Assembly: GCA_020721965.1 (NCBI GenBank)
Contig: DYLS01000034.1
Coordinates: 1-37,960 of the forward strand
Source of the DNA: Blastopirellula marina
GTDB lineage: Bacteria > Planctomycetota > Planctomycetia > Pirellulales > Thermoguttaceae
Direction of reading: 5' to 3'
DNA length: 37,960 nt
Made by a program: the position numbers and the translations under genes. This document shows positions 16,702 to 28,939 of the stretch, piece after piece. The notes beneath the pieces are model-generated. The model made no database searches. It had not been told where the DNA came from and was given only the letters and a program-made list of their open reading frames with translations. Each line of letters begins with the position of its first letter. The stretch's first letter is position 1.

Positions 16702-16993
16702 GTACTCGTTCACAGAGGTTCTCGTGACTGCCAAACGGCTCGCCCTCTTGTCATTTCGAGCGAAGCGAGAAATCTTGCGAAGTCTTTTGCAGGAATTCGC
16801 CTGGCTGCAAAACCACTGGCGCTACTGTCATTTCGAGCGGAGCGAGAAATCTTCTCGCCAAGGGGTAAGATTCTTCCTCGCTGGCGCTCGTCGGAATGAC
16901 AATCCGTTCCACACTCAAGGAACCTCTGAAACCTCGGAACAACCCTCGTTGTTTCACAAATCTTGTCCGTTATGCCTCAGCCGCGAACGTTAC
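16702..16993 (+). repeat. Dispersed ~300-bp element, copy 2 (R1)
   Basis: The left end GTACTCGTTCAC and right end GCGAACGTTAC are imperfect inverted repeats. The interior follows the family order described for copies 1 and 3, with one CGTCGGAATGACA unit. No target duplication is visible, so its edges have drifted. Confidence 0.8.
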
Positions 16994-21573: not shown

Positions 21574-22407
21574 TCAACCGGTGTCGGGTGGGGCGTCCGG
21601 AGCTTCTTCGTCGCGGTTCATGCGGACCTGGCGTTGAGCCTCCTCCCAGGCGGCCTTGCGGTCCTCCAGGGTGGCGGGTGACACGTCGGAACGGACGTAC
21701 GTCAGATACCAGTCGGCGGCACCGGCCTGCGGGATGGGCAACCGCGTCATGCTCAGCAGAATGAAGAACGTCTTCCGTTTTCCTTGGTCATCGCGATACG
21801 TGATGGCGTAGCTCTGCACGACGACGTCGCTGTTGTTCTCGCGGTAGATTTTTTCTGTGTTGAAGTAGCGGATCTGGCCGTCGCCTCGCTTTCCTAGAGC
21901 CAAAAGGGCCTGGGCCTCTTTTCGCCCGAGGAAGGCCTCCAGCTCCCGGCGGGCAGGCTGGCCGACGGCGTATTTTTCGGGCAACTTTTCATCCAGGGGT
22001 TGCCGGAGGGGAGCGGCCACGCTGAGCTGATGGGCGCGGAGCAAATCCCCCGATCGCACCAGCTCCAGCCAGGTCTGGCCGAACTGCTGGGCCTCGGCGT
22101 CCACCAGGGCGCGATGGGTAAACCATTGAGCCGGGGCCACGCCCAATAGGAATAGCCCGATCGCCACGCTGAACCGTGCGGCCGTCCGTCCCAATCGCGG
22201 CGGGTCTTGGCGTTGGATGGAGACCCCGGCCCACACGCCCACGATCAACGCCAGCGCCGGAAGAAACCAGAGAAAGGGCGAGAAGAAGGCCAACGGGGAA
22301 ATCAGGGCCAGGATCAGGGCCGCCACCGCCAGACCACTCAGGGGACGATATTCGGCGGCCTCCGCCGGCGCGGCGAATGCGGTTTCCACTCGACGGGGTT
22401 CACTCAT
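21574..22407 (-). CDS. Conserved membrane protein of unknown function
   Basis: 277 residues from ATG 22407 (GAAAGG upstream); 27 more codons are open upstream but lack support. After a short cytoplasmic lead, two or three transmembrane helices (LSGLAVAALILALISPLAFF; FLWFLPALALIVGVWAGV; AARFSVAIGLFLLGVAPAQW) make a DUF4190-like membrane core. A ~180-residue soluble domain follows that contains VVVQSYAITYRDDQGKRKTF and ADWYLTYVRSD and looks like an alpha+beta NTF2/Tim44-type fold. The tail is acidic and Pro-rich. It lies downstream of the CvpA-like gene on the same strand (~145 bp). I do not recognise a function. Confidence 0.7.
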   Translation of the reverse strand: MSEPRRVETAFAAPAEAAEYRPLSGLAVAALILALISPLAFFSPFLWFLPALALIVGVWAGVSIQRQDPPRLGRTAARFSVAIGLFLLGVAPAQWFTHRALVDAEAQQFGQTWLELVRSGDLLRAHQLSVAAPLRQPLDEKLPEKYAVGQPARRELEAFLGRKEAQALLALGKRGDGQIRYFNTEKIYRENNSDVVVQSYAITYRDDQGKRKTFFILLSMTRLPIPQAGAADWYLTYVRSDVSPATLEDRKAAWEEAQRQVRMNRDEEAPDAPPDTG

Positions 22408-22552
22408 ACGGCAGCCTTTCGCAACGCGTCGCTGTGCTCTTGGTGCGACGGCCCTCGTTCCCCGACGCGGGGCGGGGCCTTGCTGCAAACGCTACGCAGG
22501 ATGATCCGGAACGGTTCACCCCACCCCCACGGATGGATCGGCTGGGACTTGG

Positions 22553-23194
22553 CTATCGGGTTTCGGCTCCTGAGGCCTTGAAGCCGCTGCCGCCTTCCAC
22601 CTGGCTCTTCAGCGCCTCTTGCCGCTTTTGATAGACCTGGAAAATGTTGTTCTTGCCCGGGAATGAGGCCACATTCGCCCCATAATTGGCGGCCTCCTCC
22701 GCGGACACACTTCGCGATAAGGCGCCCGTGGACATCCAGTTGGCCCACAAGGCCCAGCGCAAACCGAGAGGATTCCCTGCATCGCTCACCAGAGACATGC
22801 CGAACGGCGACGGGCCCAAGGGAGCGAAATGCAGCGAAAAGAGCAAGAGCGTGTTGAATATGCCGCCACAGGAAAGCCCCAACAGTACCGCGAACGTCCG
22901 ATCGACATAGACGTTGAACTTGACATTCACGCGGGAAAGGACGGCGGTCAGCGAATGCAAAATCACCATCGCAACCACGAACACCCCCCAAAAGGCGATG
23001 AAGTCGTAAAAGTAGGTCAGTCCGGACCCAATATTGTTTTCCAGGAATCGGGCAGCCGGCTCGAAAAAGTTGGTTGCCAGCACCCCGGAAAACAGCATAT
23101 TCCAGAACCGGATGAACGCCCCCCACGCGCTATCCCGAAGGGCGAAGCCGATGAACGCGCCGGAGATGGCAATCAGGATGATCGTTAGGATCAT
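22553..23194 (-). CDS. CvpA-like membrane protein
   Basis: 213 residues. ATG 23194 has GAGG eight bases upstream. MILTIILIAISGAFIGFALR begins a four-helix membrane region: helices at ~1-18, ~27-42, ~60-80 and ~95-115, with GLTYFYDFIAFWGVFVVAMV and VDRTFAVLLGLSCGGIFNTL. The D(R/K)..G...G pattern in the last helix is that of CvpA (colicin V production family), whose members help maintain the envelope. A Lys/Gln/Ser-rich tail follows. It is separated from the pilus-ATPase pair upstream by an inserted R1 element, which may have broken a former operon. Confidence 0.65.
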   Translation of the reverse strand: MILTIILIAISGAFIGFALRDSAWGAFIRFWNMLFSGVLATNFFEPAARFLENNIGSGLTYFYDFIAFWGVFVVAMVILHSLTAVLSRVNVKFNVYVDRTFAVLLGLSCGGIFNTLLLFSLHFAPLGPSPFGMSLVSDAGNPLGLRWALWANWMSTGALSRSVSAEEAANYGANVASFPGKNNIFQVYQKRQEALKSQVEGGSGFKASGAETR

Positions 23195-23249
23195 ATTGGA
23201 TACCTCACTGTTGAGACGGCGCTTCTGAAGAGCGCGCGTCGCGATCAGG

Positions 23250-23569
23250 GCTACGACGTAGTCGTTCACAGGGGTTCTCGCCACTGCGAAAGACTCGCCC
23301 TCTTGTCATTTCAAGCAACGCGAGAAATCTTGCAAAGCTAGAAATCTTGCGAAATCTTTTGCAGGAATTTTTCTCACTGCAAAGCCGCTCGCCCTGCTGT
23401 CATTTCGACCGAAGCGAGAAATCTTCTCGTCAAGGGGTAAGATTTCTCCTGGCTGGCGCTCGTCGAAACGACATTCCGTCTTTACTCAAGGAACCTCTAG
23501 AACCTGTAACCCTCGTTGTTTCACAAATCTTTTTCGTGATAGCTCAGCCGTGAACGGTTACGCTACGAC
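23250..23569. mobile_element. Dispersed element copy 3 with 8-bp target duplication (R1)
   Basis: The element proper is 23258-23561 (304 bp). Left end GTAGTCGTTCACAGG, right end CCGTGAACGGTTAC (inverted, imperfect). It is flanked on both sides by GCTACGAC (23250-23257 and 23562-23569), a perfect 8-bp duplication. This marks the family as a transposable MITE-like element rather than a static palindrome. The right duplication contains the stop codon of the GspE-like gene. No coding capacity. Confidence 0.85.
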
Positions 23570-25335
23570 TTCTGCAACACCCGCTGTAGCTCCTCCAGCG
23601 TCGTGATGCCTTGCGCCACCAGAAGGATCCCTTCCTCTTGCAGGCTGACCATGCCGGCCGCCTTGGCGGCCTTGCGGAGCGTCGCGTAGTCTGGTGTGCC
23701 GGCCAGCACCTTGCGAACCGTGTCGTTGACCACAAGAAGCTCGTAGAACGCTGCCCGACCGAGATAACCCATGCCTTGGCACTGGGGGCAGGGTTCCGGC
23801 CGCTCCTGCGTGGGCGCCCCGGGGCGATACAAGGCCTGCACGCGACCGGGCGGTATGCCCAGCCGTTGCAGGAGTTCCGGCGACGGTGCGTACGGCTGCT
23901 TGCAGGCATCGCACAAGCGCCGCAAAACCCGCTGATTCAACACGCCGATCACCGCCTTGGGAAAGGTCTTCGATCGCGGTTGCAGCTTCAGCAGCCGCAG
24001 CAGCGCCTCGCAGCAGTCCCTGGCCCGGACCGTGGTGATGATCAAGCGGTCGTTTTCCACCTCCTGCGCGGTCAGCTCCAGAATCTCGCCGTCCGGAATG
24101 TCGCGAAAGACCACCACGTTGGGTTCCAAGTGGAACCACTTGTCGAGCATATCGGGCAGCAGCGTCCGATCGGAACTCTTGTATGCGTGGACGTGGACGT
24201 TTTCCACGGACTGGTAGACGGCATTCTCCTCCTGGATGGCGATCCATTCGCGGGAGAACCGGTCCGCGGATGTCAGGGCGCAGGTCACCGTGGTCCGCAA
24301 GCCATACGAGGGCGGGGCTGAAAAAACGATGACCCCGCGGTGCTCGTCGAGCAACTTGGCGAGCTGCTCATGAAGCTTGGGGCGCATGCCCAGGTCGTCC
24401 AGTTTTCGAAACCGTGTCTGCTTTTCCTCGATGCGCAGGACGACCTTTTCGCCACCTGCCGCCCCTTGCGAGAGGAATGTGGCGGACAATGGCACGTCGG
24501 CGTATTTGAACTCGAAGCGGCCCTCCTGGCGGTTCACGTGGTCCTGGGGATTCAGGCCACACAAGATCTTGAGGGATTCCACGGCGGGGAGAACCTGTTG
24601 CAGCGGGATGGGCGGACGGTTCATCCACATCCCGTCGATCTCGTATTGGCACGCGGCGCCAGCGGCCTGAAGATCGAAGACGGCCCCTTCGGCCCGGTGC
24701 TCCACGGCACCGGCTACCAGCTCCCGTGCCGCTTGATAACCTGGATGCTGCCGGGCGGGGATAAGCCGCAGGTTGCGGACCTGATCGTTCGGTCCCACGG
24801 CCTGGAAGCGGATCGGCGGCGGGCGATCGTCCGGACCCAACTCCACCACCTTTTTCCCCGACAGGCGGGCGATGACCTTGCGGAGGTGCAAGGGCGTGAA
24901 GACGCGATCCTCCCGATCGACCTTGCCGTTGCGATGAATCACATACGCGATGAACGGCCCGAATACTGCCAAAACCGCCAAGAAGATGCCCACGGGAAAG
25001 ATGGGAAAGCCGAATGCGATCCCAAAAACCACCATGAACACGAAAAACACCAGCGGGTTCCAGAGCTTGGTATTGAGGTGCAATCGCTGCACATCCTGGC
25101 TCACCCAGTCCCCGATCTTGGCCCAAAGGAGAAACAGCAAGATGAAGGCGAACAGCTTGATCAGGCTGAAATAGAAGCCTGGCCCAGACCAACCGGATTG
25201 GGCCAAGGGAAGCACGCCGGGGGAGAGGGGCTGGGCAAGGATGGGGCCGGCATGGCCGCCCATCGCGATGGCCGCTGCCATCACACCCGCGCTTCGCAAC
25301 ATTCGTCGTGGCGGAAACAACCAGGGTTGCATCAA
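23563..25335 (-). CDS. Membrane-anchored degenerate PilB/GspE-like protein
   Basis: 590 residues. The N-terminus has a signal-like segment (residues ~11-35) and two or three transmembrane helices (~54-72, ~94-115, ~117-133), unlike cytoplasmic PilB/GspE. Residues ~150-590 follow the PilB layout, but the ATPase signatures are ruined: Walker A reads SAPPSYGLRTT (339-349) instead of TGPTGSGKT(T), with the lysine lost; Walker B reads EPNVVVFRDIPD (404-415) instead of DPD..MVGEIRD; the TGH of the His box is NDR (428-430). The four zinc-type cysteines are intact: LCDAC (C475, C478) and CPQC (C516, C519). It lies 13 bp downstream of pilT on the same strand. A structural or regulatory pseudo-ATPase anchoring a type IV pilus/secretion motor is the best inference. 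Confidence 0.8.
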   Translation of the reverse strand: MMQPWLFPPRRMLRSAGVMAAAIAMGGHAGPILAQPLSPGVLPLAQSGWSGPGFYFSLIKLFAFILLFLLWAKIGDWVSQDVQRLHLNTKLWNPLVFFVFMVVFGIAFGFPIFPVGIFLAVLAVFGPFIAYVIHRNGKVDREDRVFTPLHLRKVIARLSGKKVVELGPDDRPPPIRFQAVGPNDQVRNLRLIPARQHPGYQAARELVAGAVEHRAEGAVFDLQAAGAACQYEIDGMWMNRPPIPLQQVLPAVESLKILCGLNPQDHVNRQEGRFEFKYADVPLSATFLSQGAAGGEKVVLRIEEKQTRFRKLDDLGMRPKLHEQLAKLLDEHRGVIVFSAPPSYGLRTTVTCALTSADRFSREWIAIQEENAVYQSVENVHVHAYKSSDRTLLPDMLDKWFHLEPNVVVFRDIPDGEILELTAQEVENDRLIITTVRARDCCEALLRLLKLQPRSKTFPKAVIGVLNQRVLRRLCDACKQPYAPSPELLQRLGIPPGRVQALYRPGAPTQERPEPCPQCQGMGYLGRAAFYELLVVNDTVRKVLAGTPDYATLRKAAKAAGMVSLQEEGILLVAQGITTLEELQRVLQKS

Positions 25336-25348
25336 CGGATTCCCGGTA

Positions 25349-26497
25349 TTAAAGGATTCCCGGCTCTTTGACTTCGATTCCCTTGAGGGCCATGCTCAAG
25401 GCCTCTGGATTGGGCGCCACCTCGAAGGCCGTCGCCCGATCGATCAATCGCCGCTCCACCAATTGCTTCAGGCTGAGCGTGAAATCTTGCATCCCTTCCT
25501 GGTATCCCAGCCGGATGGCGTCCGGCAATTTGTGATCTTGCCCCTCCAAGATAAGCTTGCGGATGGTGGGGTTGAAGATCATGATTTCGCAGGTAGGCAC
25601 CCGCTGCACCCCTTCCTTGATGGATGGGAGCAACTTCTGTGCGACGATGCCCTTCATATTGAAGGCGATGGCGCTGCGGATGGCGCTGTGCATTTCACTG
25701 GGGAAGAGGTCCAAAATCCGGCCCAGCGTACTGGGAGCGGTGGAGGCGTGAATGGTTCCAAACACCAGGTGCCCTGTCTCAGCCGCCTGAATGGCGGTCT
25801 CGAACGTCTCGCGGTCGCGCATTTCGCCCACCAGCATGACGTCCGGGTCTTCACGGACCGCGTGCTTCATGCCGATCATGAAATCCTTGACATCGATGCC
25901 GATTTCCCGCTGGTTGATCAGGCACTTATCCTCGGTGAAGGTGAACTCGATGGGGTCCTCCAGCGTGAGGATATGCTTGCGGTAATTGCGGTTGACCCAA
26001 TTCAGCATCGAGGCGATCGTGGTGCTCTTTCCCGAGCCGGTGACGCCCGCCAACAAAATCATCCCCTGGTGAAACTTGCAGAGTTCTTCCAGGATGGGCG
26101 GCAAAAAGAGCTTCTCGAAGTCGGGGATGTAATTGTTGATCCGCCGCGCCACCAACCCCAGGTAACCCATCTGCTGGAGCACGTTCACGCGGAATCGCCA
26201 GCGGACCTCGTCGATTTCCACGACATAGGCAAAGTCGCATCCGCCGTCCTCATCCAAGATGCGGCGCAGGCGCTCGTCCAGCATCGGGAAGATGAGCCGC
26301 ACCATTTCGTCTTCGTCGATCGGCTCGCGATTCAACGGGCGAAGGGTCCCGGCCACGCGAACATAAGGAGGCCGCCCCACCTTGAGGTGCAGGTCGCTCC
26401 CCTGCAACTTCACCAGCGAGCGGAACAGCTTGTCGATTTCGAGATTAGCAGGGCGTTTGCCGAATCGCTTTTTGTCTTCTTCTACCGGGATGGTCAT
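25349..26497 (-). CDS. pilT: Twitching-motility/pilus retraction ATPase PilT
   Basis: Hexameric cytoplasmic motor that depolymerises type IV pilin. 382 residues from ATG 26497, preceded by GGAAGGGGG; 46 more open codons upstream are rejected. Intact motifs: GSDLHLKVGRPPYVRVAG in the N-domain, Walker A GVTGSGKSTT (151-160), Asp box LTLEDPIEF, Walker B DPDVMLVGEMRD (217-228) and His box TGHLVFGTIH (241-250). It could be PilT or its paralogue PilU; the C-terminal AIRLG motif is replaced by AIRLGYQEGMQ. First gene of a minus-strand pair with the degenerate PilB-like protein. Confidence 0.92.
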   Translation of the reverse strand: MTIPVEEDKKRFGKRPANLEIDKLFRSLVKLQGSDLHLKVGRPPYVRVAGTLRPLNREPIDEDEMVRLIFPMLDERLRRILDEDGGCDFAYVVEIDEVRWRFRVNVLQQMGYLGLVARRINNYIPDFEKLFLPPILEELCKFHQGMILLAGVTGSGKSTTIASMLNWVNRNYRKHILTLEDPIEFTFTEDKCLINQREIGIDVKDFMIGMKHAVREDPDVMLVGEMRDRETFETAIQAAETGHLVFGTIHASTAPSTLGRILDLFPSEMHSAIRSAIAFNMKGIVAQKLLPSIKEGVQRVPTCEIMIFNPTIRKLILEGQDHKLPDAIRLGYQEGMQDFTLSLKQLVERRLIDRATAFEVAPNPEALSMALKGIEVKEPGIL

Positions 26498-26885
26498 GGG
26501 CCGAGGCCCCCTTCCTCCACGTTGGCATGGCTGACAAGAACAAGCATCCGTGATCTCGACCGCTCCGCGCCGCCCCGACCGACAGACTTGGGGATCGCGG
26601 CGATCAAACCTATATCTTCCCTTCCCAGACCGCATGGTTTCAAGCGGGTACCGCCAGTGGCCTGGTCCGCGGCCACCGATGCCGGCCGTGTGACGAGCAT
26701 CCGCCGCCGGATTCCATGCGGCCCGCCACGAGAAGCGGCGTCAAAAGGCCAAGCAGGACAACGCTTTGCGGCGAGGGAGGGCGGGACCTCCTCGCTTTCG
26801 ACCCTGCGTGGCCACTGTTCGTCGCCACCTCGATGCCGCATGGTGGTTGCTGGAAACGGTGGCCGCCCCACGCCAGCTTCCCTCG
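26498..26885. other. Leader region of pilT
   Basis: GC-rich spacer with several overlapping open frames on both strands but no ribosome binding site or recognisable product. The pilT promoter should be here; no clear -35/-10 pair was found. Confidence 0.35.
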
Positions 26886-26951
26886 GTACGTGCTCGGCAT
26901 GTGCTCGCTACGTGCTTGGAATGTGCCCGGTATGTGCTCGATACGTGCCCG
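26886..26951. repeat. Tandem repeat, 11-bp period x6
   Basis: Six contiguous 11-bp units start at 26886, 26897, 26908, 26919, 26930 and 26941. Consensus NNAYGTGCTCG, with alternating TACGTG and ATGTG cores. The period equals about one helical turn, so identical faces of the DNA repeat. It lies ~390 bp upstream of the pilT start. Confidence 0.8.
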
Positions 26952-26979
26952 TTTAGCGACTGTTCACGGGTGGCATAAT

Positions 26980-27341
26980 GTAGGCGTTCACAGCGGGCTC
27001 CGGAGTGCAAAACGACTTGTCCCCCCCTGTGCTCTCGCTCCTGTCATTTCGAGCGAAGCGAGAAATCTTGCGAAGCATGAAGTCTTCTCGACAGGGGTTA
27101 AGATTTCTCCTCGCTGGCGCTCATCGAAATGACATGCCTGGCGATTGTCGAGACGACATTGCTGGCGCTTGTGGAAATGACATTGGTGACGCTTCTCGAA
27201 ATGACAATCCGTTCCAAACGGAGTACTTGCAAGTTGCGTCCCTTGCGGACCCAATAACATCTGAACAATCCTTGGGAACCTCTGGACAACCCTCGTGGTT
27301 TCACAAGTCTTGTCCGTTATAGCTCAGCCGTGAACGGTTAC
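26980..27341 (+). repeat. Dispersed element copy 4, expanded inside (R1)
   Basis: Left end GTAGGCGTTCACAG, right end GTGAACGGTTAC. At 362 bp it is the longest copy, because the CGCTCATCGAAATGACATGC-type block is present as 24-bp units at 27118, 27142, 27166 and partly 27190, where copies 2 and 3 have one. No target duplication is visible. Confidence 0.8.
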
Positions 27342-28719: not shown

Positions 28720-28841
28720 CGCAGTGACAGTCAAGAAATAATTCATCCTGCTCATCGAATCCCAGTAGGTCAAGGTGGTGCCATGCCAGGTCGTGTTGAA
28801 CGTGTCGATGGTGTGGGCCGTTCGTTGCCATTATGGCAGGG

Positions 28842-28939
28842 GAGAACAGTTATTCCAGGGGAAATCAGCTATTCCCTGGGAAATCAGTTATTCCAGTGGA
28901 GAGCAGTTATTCCGCGGGAGAGCAGCTATTCCAGGGAGG
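28842..28939. repeat. Tandem repeat, 19-bp period x5
   Basis: CAGYTATTCC occurs at 28847, 28866, 28885, 28904 and 28923, exactly 19 bp apart; full units read like CAGTTATTCCAGGGGAAAT. It lies between the divergent galK and HD-GYP regulator genes. The rest of this 506-bp spacer shows nothing else recognisable. Confidence 0.85.

Follow-up and report, generated by a model that had tools for sequence, protein, structure and literature searches.

The PilB and PilT families build hexameric rings, and ATPases of these two types occur very widely and are treated as active motors. In the Dot/Icm type IV secretion system, the PilT-like ATPase DotB docks on a membrane-associated ATPase ring of DotO, a protein that is VirB4-like and not PilB-like. 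In Vibrio cholerae, as described in the excerpted text of two studies of PilT and PilU, retraction powered by PilU still proceeds when PilT carries a Walker mutation that putatively abolishes hydrolysis, and is abolished when PilT is absent (PMC6821130, PMC6762196). Here we describe a gene pair of Blastopirellula marina in which an intact pilT is followed by a gene for a PilB/GspE-like membrane protein with degenerate ATPase motifs, called the membrane pseudo-PilB below. The pair lies in the window, i.e., the whole analysed stretch of 37,960 nucleotides from contig DYLS01000034.1 (assembly GCA_020721965.1). As judged from its sequence, the membrane pseudo-PilB represents a branch of the PilB/GspE ATPases that is embedded in the membrane, probably inactive by nature, and tied to PilT. 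NCBIfam and Pfam hold no dedicated model for it, and a search of the open-access literature on the openings of abstracts found no description of it.

With the extension ATPases PilB, GspE and PilF the window protein has the core domain and the tetracysteine in common; it differs from them in having three additional hydrophobic helices and a signal-like segment, and in lacking the Walker A Lys, the Walker B Glu and the His of the His box. The nearest experimental precedent would be the PilT-PilU pair, in which two paralogous proteins of ATPase fold likewise act together; however, both of these are of PilT type and naturally active, whereas here one partner is of PilB type, sits in the membrane and has lost its motifs naturally. 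The DotB-DotO pair may resemble the docking of PilT on a membrane ring that is proposed below, but differs from it in that DotO is VirB4-like.

Membrane region and ATPase motifs of the window protein

The gene of the membrane pseudo-PilB (window positions 23563-25335, minus strand) encodes 590 amino acids from a TTG start at 25335 or an ATG at 25332 and, with the TTG counted, begins 13 bp past the stop codon of pilT. The Pfam family T2SSE covers residues 206-585 (E-value 3.7e-35; 121.7 bits against a cut-off of 24.9). The protein also carries a signal-like N-terminal segment at about residues 10-35 (25231-25308, minus strand), recognised by eye from an RR pair, a hydrophobic stretch and ILA-Q, and a membrane region in which a hydropathy scan places three helices at about residues 53-75, 94-111 and 115-134 (24934-25179, minus strand), the hydrophobic segments themselves being at about 54-72, 95-113 and 115-133. 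Seven Lys or Arg residues follow just past the third predicted helix, which fits a cytoplasmic core, and an alignment of 32 sequences showed an invariant W, D, W and N in the membrane region across groups. A PilB/GspE extension ATPase would be expected to be soluble and free of transmembrane (TM) helices, and the three hydrophobic segments of the window protein depart from this; four of the five canonical PilB/GspE proteins of the same genome have no hydrophobic segment and the fifth (L004) has one weak segment within the core. The NCBIfam equivalog scores of the window protein are below the cut-offs for GspE (157.7 against 630.25 bits) and PilB (128.7 against 675.65 bits), as are those of an active relative from another family of the class (442.5 and 400.6 bits, respectively). 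By sequence, the best solved relative is Thermus PilF (E-value about 2e-40), and Foldseek matched a low-confidence model of the protein to PilF, PilB and GspE structures (Thermus PilF 5oiu and 5it5; Geobacter PilB 5tsh). These features point to an inner-membrane-type PilB/GspE-like protein that combines a signal-like segment and three hydrophobic helices with a PilB core and tetracysteine. Coordinates, Pfam and hydropathy thus agree with the initial annotation, which had described such a protein 13 bp after an intact pilT.

Motif calls were based on alignment with the canonical PilB/GspE proteins of the same genome, and all the positions that follow are on the minus strand. In the degenerate Walker A (residues 340-349, APPSYGLRTT; 24289-24318) the canonical VTGPTGSGKTTTL has become FSAPPSYGLRTTV, with Leu in the place of the Lys and Arg as the next residue, a departure from GxxxxGK[ST]. 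The degenerate Walker B (residues 405-415; 24091-24123) reads PNVVVFRDIPD for the canonical PDVILVGEIRD, i.e., GE is replaced by RD, and in the degenerate His box (residues 428-441, NDRLIITTVRARDC; 24013-24054) the canonical GHLVFSTLH reads DRLIITTVR, with Arg in the place of the His. The tetracysteine zinc-type site, a putative metal site, is kept, its first CxxC being formed by C475 and C478 (23902-23913) and its second by C516 and C519 (23779-23790). The alignment therefore bears out the loss of all three motifs and the retention of the cysteines that had been read from the letters at the outset, and the protein, which no longer has the residues that would bind and hydrolyse ATP, is probably a pseudo-ATPase.

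Motif state across relatives, selection and losses of catalysis

Relatives were grouped by family, where f1 is the window's own family, taken as Thermoguttaceae; f1-f3, one order, were taken as Pirellulales; f4, f5 and f87 belong to the window's class as separate families; and f33 and f39 are further families of the same phylum. The term "other classes" denotes f7, f46, f51, f57, f63, f67, f73, f74 and f76, which we suspect are perhaps Phycisphaerae-like. A first motif set contained 116 reading frames (118 were picked, and two fragment or duplicate rows were removed) and a second set came from 40 further genomes; the loci are a selection from among the genomes that matched. The results showed that the Walker A lysine is absent from all 67 distinct Pirellulales proteins (59/59 in f1 and 8/8 in f2/f3) and from 34 of 35 other-class proteins (15/15 in the first set and 19/20 in the second), the sole keeper being an f74 copy whose Walker B and His are lost. 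Membrane PilB-like ATPases of f4 and f5 share the TM region and the core with the window protein but differ in their motifs: Lys, GE and His are all intact in 21/21 membrane-type f4 proteins (18/18 in the first set and 3/3 in the second), and the lysine is present in 17/17 f5 proteins (one in the first set and 16/16 in the second), with full motifs in 16 and no His in the remaining one. The three motifs are also retained in 2/2 f33 and 2/2 f39 proteins, and the f87 protein has kept the lysine but reads DE for GE and has no His. The expectation that homologues would not keep GKT and DEIRD-type motifs is thus borne out in the Pirellulales, where 0/67 have the lysine, and in the other classes, where 1/35 has it, and fails in f4, f5, f33 and f39. 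All four cysteines are retained in every planctomycete protein of the 116-row set, including 67/67 from Pirellulales and 15/15 from other classes, and in 36/40 proteins of the second set, the four exceptions coming from one f7 genus; one cysteine column differs in the distant Nautiliaceae locus L016. Since the motifs are nearly always intact in two families of the same class, f4 and f5, an active membrane ATPase is the probable ancestral state.

Selection on the degenerate form was assessed from the ratio of nonsynonymous to synonymous substitution rates (dN/dS), which between the window protein and an 84%-identical relative is 0.103 overall and 0.099 over residues 331-440; the ratio is 0.032 for the adjacent PilT pair and 0.034 for a second pair of membrane proteins. 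The substituted residues are fixed in f1 (L346 in 56/59, R411 in 57/59, D412 in 57/59 and R437 in 58/59 proteins), and each of the four falls in the top 10% of core columns by conservation there. In 15 other-class proteins the same four positions vary, and the second Walker A glycine is invariant. The f1 pocket thus seems to have been refitted with conserved Leu, Arg, Asp and Arg, which would be a new and constrained chemistry and not mere erosion, and the other classes seem to have kept little besides the fold. Purifying selection, together with the lysine pattern across families, argues against simple decay of the window copy, which we reject on the dN/dS of about 0.10 and the conservation of the substituted residues; the domain E-values, this dN/dS and the recurrence of the same arrangement in other genomes indicate that the membrane pseudo-PilB is more than a chance occurrence.

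How often catalysis was lost was approached with trees of the two proteins. In the PilT tree the Pirellulales stand beside f4, then f5, then f87 (support 100/99), and the PilT data reject a clade of Pirellulales and other classes (approximately unbiased test, p-AU 0.0027; a quick tree that carried a long-branch warning). In the core tree with the motif columns masked, the Pirellulales, the other-class copies and a soluble degenerate paralogue from f4 group together (100/99), and the ATPase core rejects a grouping of Pirellulales with f4/f5 (p-AU 0.0049); with the columns conserved in active forms removed this grouping is not rejected (p 0.112), the best tree still joining the degenerate copies (98/97.5). 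The TM-region tree places the Pirellulales with f4/f5 (88/80), and the alternative is not rejected (p 0.37). In a larger masked tree the f74 and f87 copies, in which GKTTT is kept and the other motifs are lost, join the degenerate groups at an open fork, which suggests stepwise and repeated loss together with long-branch effects. Given that f4 and nearly all f5 proteins are intact, the losses in Pirellulales, other classes and f87 would be separate if the membrane protein is co-inherited with PilT. We favour catalysis having been lost more than once, with long-branch attraction drawing the core copies together; the trees disagree on the number of losses, and early duplication with differential loss is a possible alternative. 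The soluble degenerate PilB/GspE-like paralogue (L143, L144, L145 and L148) was matched in 38 f4 genomes, and in the four loci examined it does not lie near pilT. The idea that every lineage needs one pseudo-subunit was dropped, since the listed f5 genomes have a single match each, which is the membrane form in those examined.

Partner PilT and the gene neighbourhood

The pilT gene (25349-26497, minus strand) encodes an intact retraction-type ATPase of 382 amino acids, which scores above the PilT/PilU cut-off (TIGR01420, 396.8 against 319.1 bits) and carries the motifs GVTGSGKSTT, VGEMRD and TGHLVFGTIH. Across relatives, 82 of 84 PilT rows have all their motifs (one row being a second PilT from the same contig), the two exceptions being the halves of one split reading frame, and the P-loop is intact in 12/12 PilTs added later. 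Linkage was called where pilT lies on the same strand and starts no more than 2.7 kb upstream, among loci with enough flank. By this rule pilT is linked in the first set at 39/44 f1, 8/8 f2/f3, 15/15 other-class, 1/1 f5, 1/1 f33 and 2/2 f39 loci, and among later loci it is near in 19/20 other-class and 16/17 f5/f87 cases, so that f5 and f87 share pilT within 2.7 kb in 17/18 loci, as do some f4 loci; L107 and L108, two f4 loci with flanks too short for the count, are also pilT-linked. Behind pilT, L052 and L080 (genus g35) carry a tandem pair of degenerate genes for membrane PilB-like proteins.

The third gene of the module (22553-23284, minus strand; start codon uncertain) encodes a CvpA-like (Colicin_V, PF02674) membrane protein, which at 28.5 bits falls just below the Pfam cut-off of 29.3; of eight CvpA-like relatives compared with PF02674, one from the same genus passes (45.2 bits), six are below the cut-off and one has no match. 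A CvpA-like gene comes next at 34/38 f1, 4/5 f2/f3, 1/1 f5, 5/6 f4 and 15/15 other-class loci, where the other-class proteins cluster apart and were counted as CvpA-like on sub-threshold Pfam matches, and where one f1 locus counted as lacking the gene has a CvpA-like frame whose start the counting rule does not cover. A gene for a DUF4190-like membrane protein (21574-22488, minus strand; PF13828 at 25.2 bits, under the cut-off of 35; start codon uncertain) is next in many Pirellulales loci and belongs to the same gene family at f1 and f2 loci. Upstream of pilT, a hisF-like gene assigned by eye is found at 21/34 f1, 5/5 f2/f3 and 5/15 other-class loci, and in the window it lies elsewhere.

A TM-region profile run against 292 planctomycete genomes matched 74 of them, once each, and gave no match in 218, with up to 16 candidates per genome being scored; the matching genomes do not include the two of f39. 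A family-wide search matched 119/119 genomes, a count that says little because canonical PilB passes the same threshold. The module was seen only in planctomycetes, a pattern-based scan being the one search made outside the phylum, which gives no evidence of absence there. The pairing of pilT with the pseudo-PilB gene recurs in several major planctomycete branches and may be the mark of a machine not yet described.

On either side of the pair, at 23294-23561 and 27032-27341, lies a direct copy of a non-coding repeat some 280 bp long (82-91% identity in the matched pieces). A further copy lies at 16760-16993, and the repeat is dispersed, with at least 48 full or partial matches in the genome (40 of 227 candidates scored). 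No Rfam family reaches its threshold within the window, which also contains short tandem arrays at 28812-28932 (19-bp unit) and 26882-26958 (11-bp unit).

Proposed mechanism and alternative explanations

The reading we prefer, to which we would give somewhat less than an even chance, is that the membrane pseudo-PilB forms a non-hydrolysing membrane ring that docks and positions PilT within a module of PilT, pseudo-PilB and the CvpA-like protein. The pseudo-PilB would still fold and oligomerise as PilB does, probably as a hexamer, with its helices holding the ring in the membrane; the PilT hexamer would dock on this fixed ring, ATP hydrolysis would come from PilT alone, and the ring would either position PilT or pass its motion on to a membrane partner, for which the CvpA-like protein is the best candidate. 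Catalysis in the pseudo-PilB would have become dispensable because PilT does the work.

Several observations weigh against this reading. The structure prediction, made with four sequences as input, is weak (mean pLDDT 56.4), and conclusions are therefore kept to the level of the fold; the loss of motifs is, moreover, no proof that nucleotide binding is gone. The four membrane pseudo-PilB copies of f7 genus g63 (L149-L152) have lost the zinc-type cysteines too. L091 and L096 (f2) are pilT-linked degenerate copies without the TM region, with no TM match in the genomes G381 and G334, so that the anchor is not indispensable. The f4 membrane loci are weakly tied to pilT (2/6 in the first set and 0/3 later), and adjacency is loose, the gap to pilT being about 1.3 kb in L079. 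Beside the f33 and f39 copies no CvpA-like gene was found (0/2 each), and most CvpA-like assignments are sub-threshold in Pfam. Finally, one of the two PilT-PilU papers, in its excerpted text, argues against mixed PilT/PilU hexamers (PMC6821130, PMC6762196), which leaves a mixing of subunits unsupported by this precedent.

A bolder version, which we regard as rather unlikely, is a pilin-free, planctomycete-specific membrane machine with no part in pilus retraction, in which a membrane-embedded pseudo-PilB ring, driven by PilT, would be linked to a channel or scaffold of CvpA-like type; catalysis would have been dropped from the PilB half on several independent occasions, the ring and the anchor being all that it had to supply. 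The fixation of pocket residues in f1 (GLR, RD and RA[KR]), which a pure scaffold would not need, speaks for a regulatory brake or sensor in the place of a mechanical platform, whose refitted pocket would bind another ligand, or nucleotide without hydrolyzing it, and so switch PilT on or off. As the 15 other-class proteins have no conserved replacement, such a ligand role would be lineage-specific, and we consider it unlikely.

The initial annotation went further and proposed that the membrane protein replaces the usual extension ATPase. This finds no support and was rejected, since canonical genes remain: the search for a separate canonical PilB found five canonical PilB/GspE proteins with full motifs in the window's genome, and 34/34 chosen genomes match both T2SSE and the PilC/GspF-type family T2SSF. 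What stands of that interpretation is a partner that is conserved, fixed in the membrane and probably without catalysis, its gene lying next to pilT. The T2SSE and PilC/GspF-type genes in all 34 genomes would also suit an accessory subunit of a classical type IV pilus or type II secretion system encoded elsewhere in the cell, a pilus that PilT would retract, and the PilT of the operon is a true PilT-family protein; but a separate canonical PilT, 39.9% identical to the window PilT, lies beside pilB genes on contig C98, and the common neighbours of the pair are CvpA-like, DUF4190-like and hisF-like genes (no search was aimed at pilins), which makes this account quite improbable. In the excerpted text of an essential-gene study of Planctopirus limnophila, PilT, GspE and pili go unmentioned and the locus Plim_0410-0401 is annotated partly as type II secretion (PMC10632474). 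The repeated loss of catalytic residues, and in one genus of the zinc-type cysteines as well, would fit a relict in slow decay that is kept for its membrane segment or for the expression of its neighbours, but with a dN/dS of about 0.10 also within residues 331-440, long open frames, the tetracysteine in 67/67 Pirellulales and 15/15 other-class proteins and the substituted residues fixed in f1, this is very improbable.

A conserved PilB in the membrane beside PilT, inactive by nature, would be a natural experiment on the role of the ring apart from hydrolysis, and close relatives with intact motifs make it directly testable which functions outlast the loss of ATP hydrolysis. Such a protein would, moreover, be a sign that planctomycetes, whose cell biology is known to be unusual, have an envelope machine not yet described.

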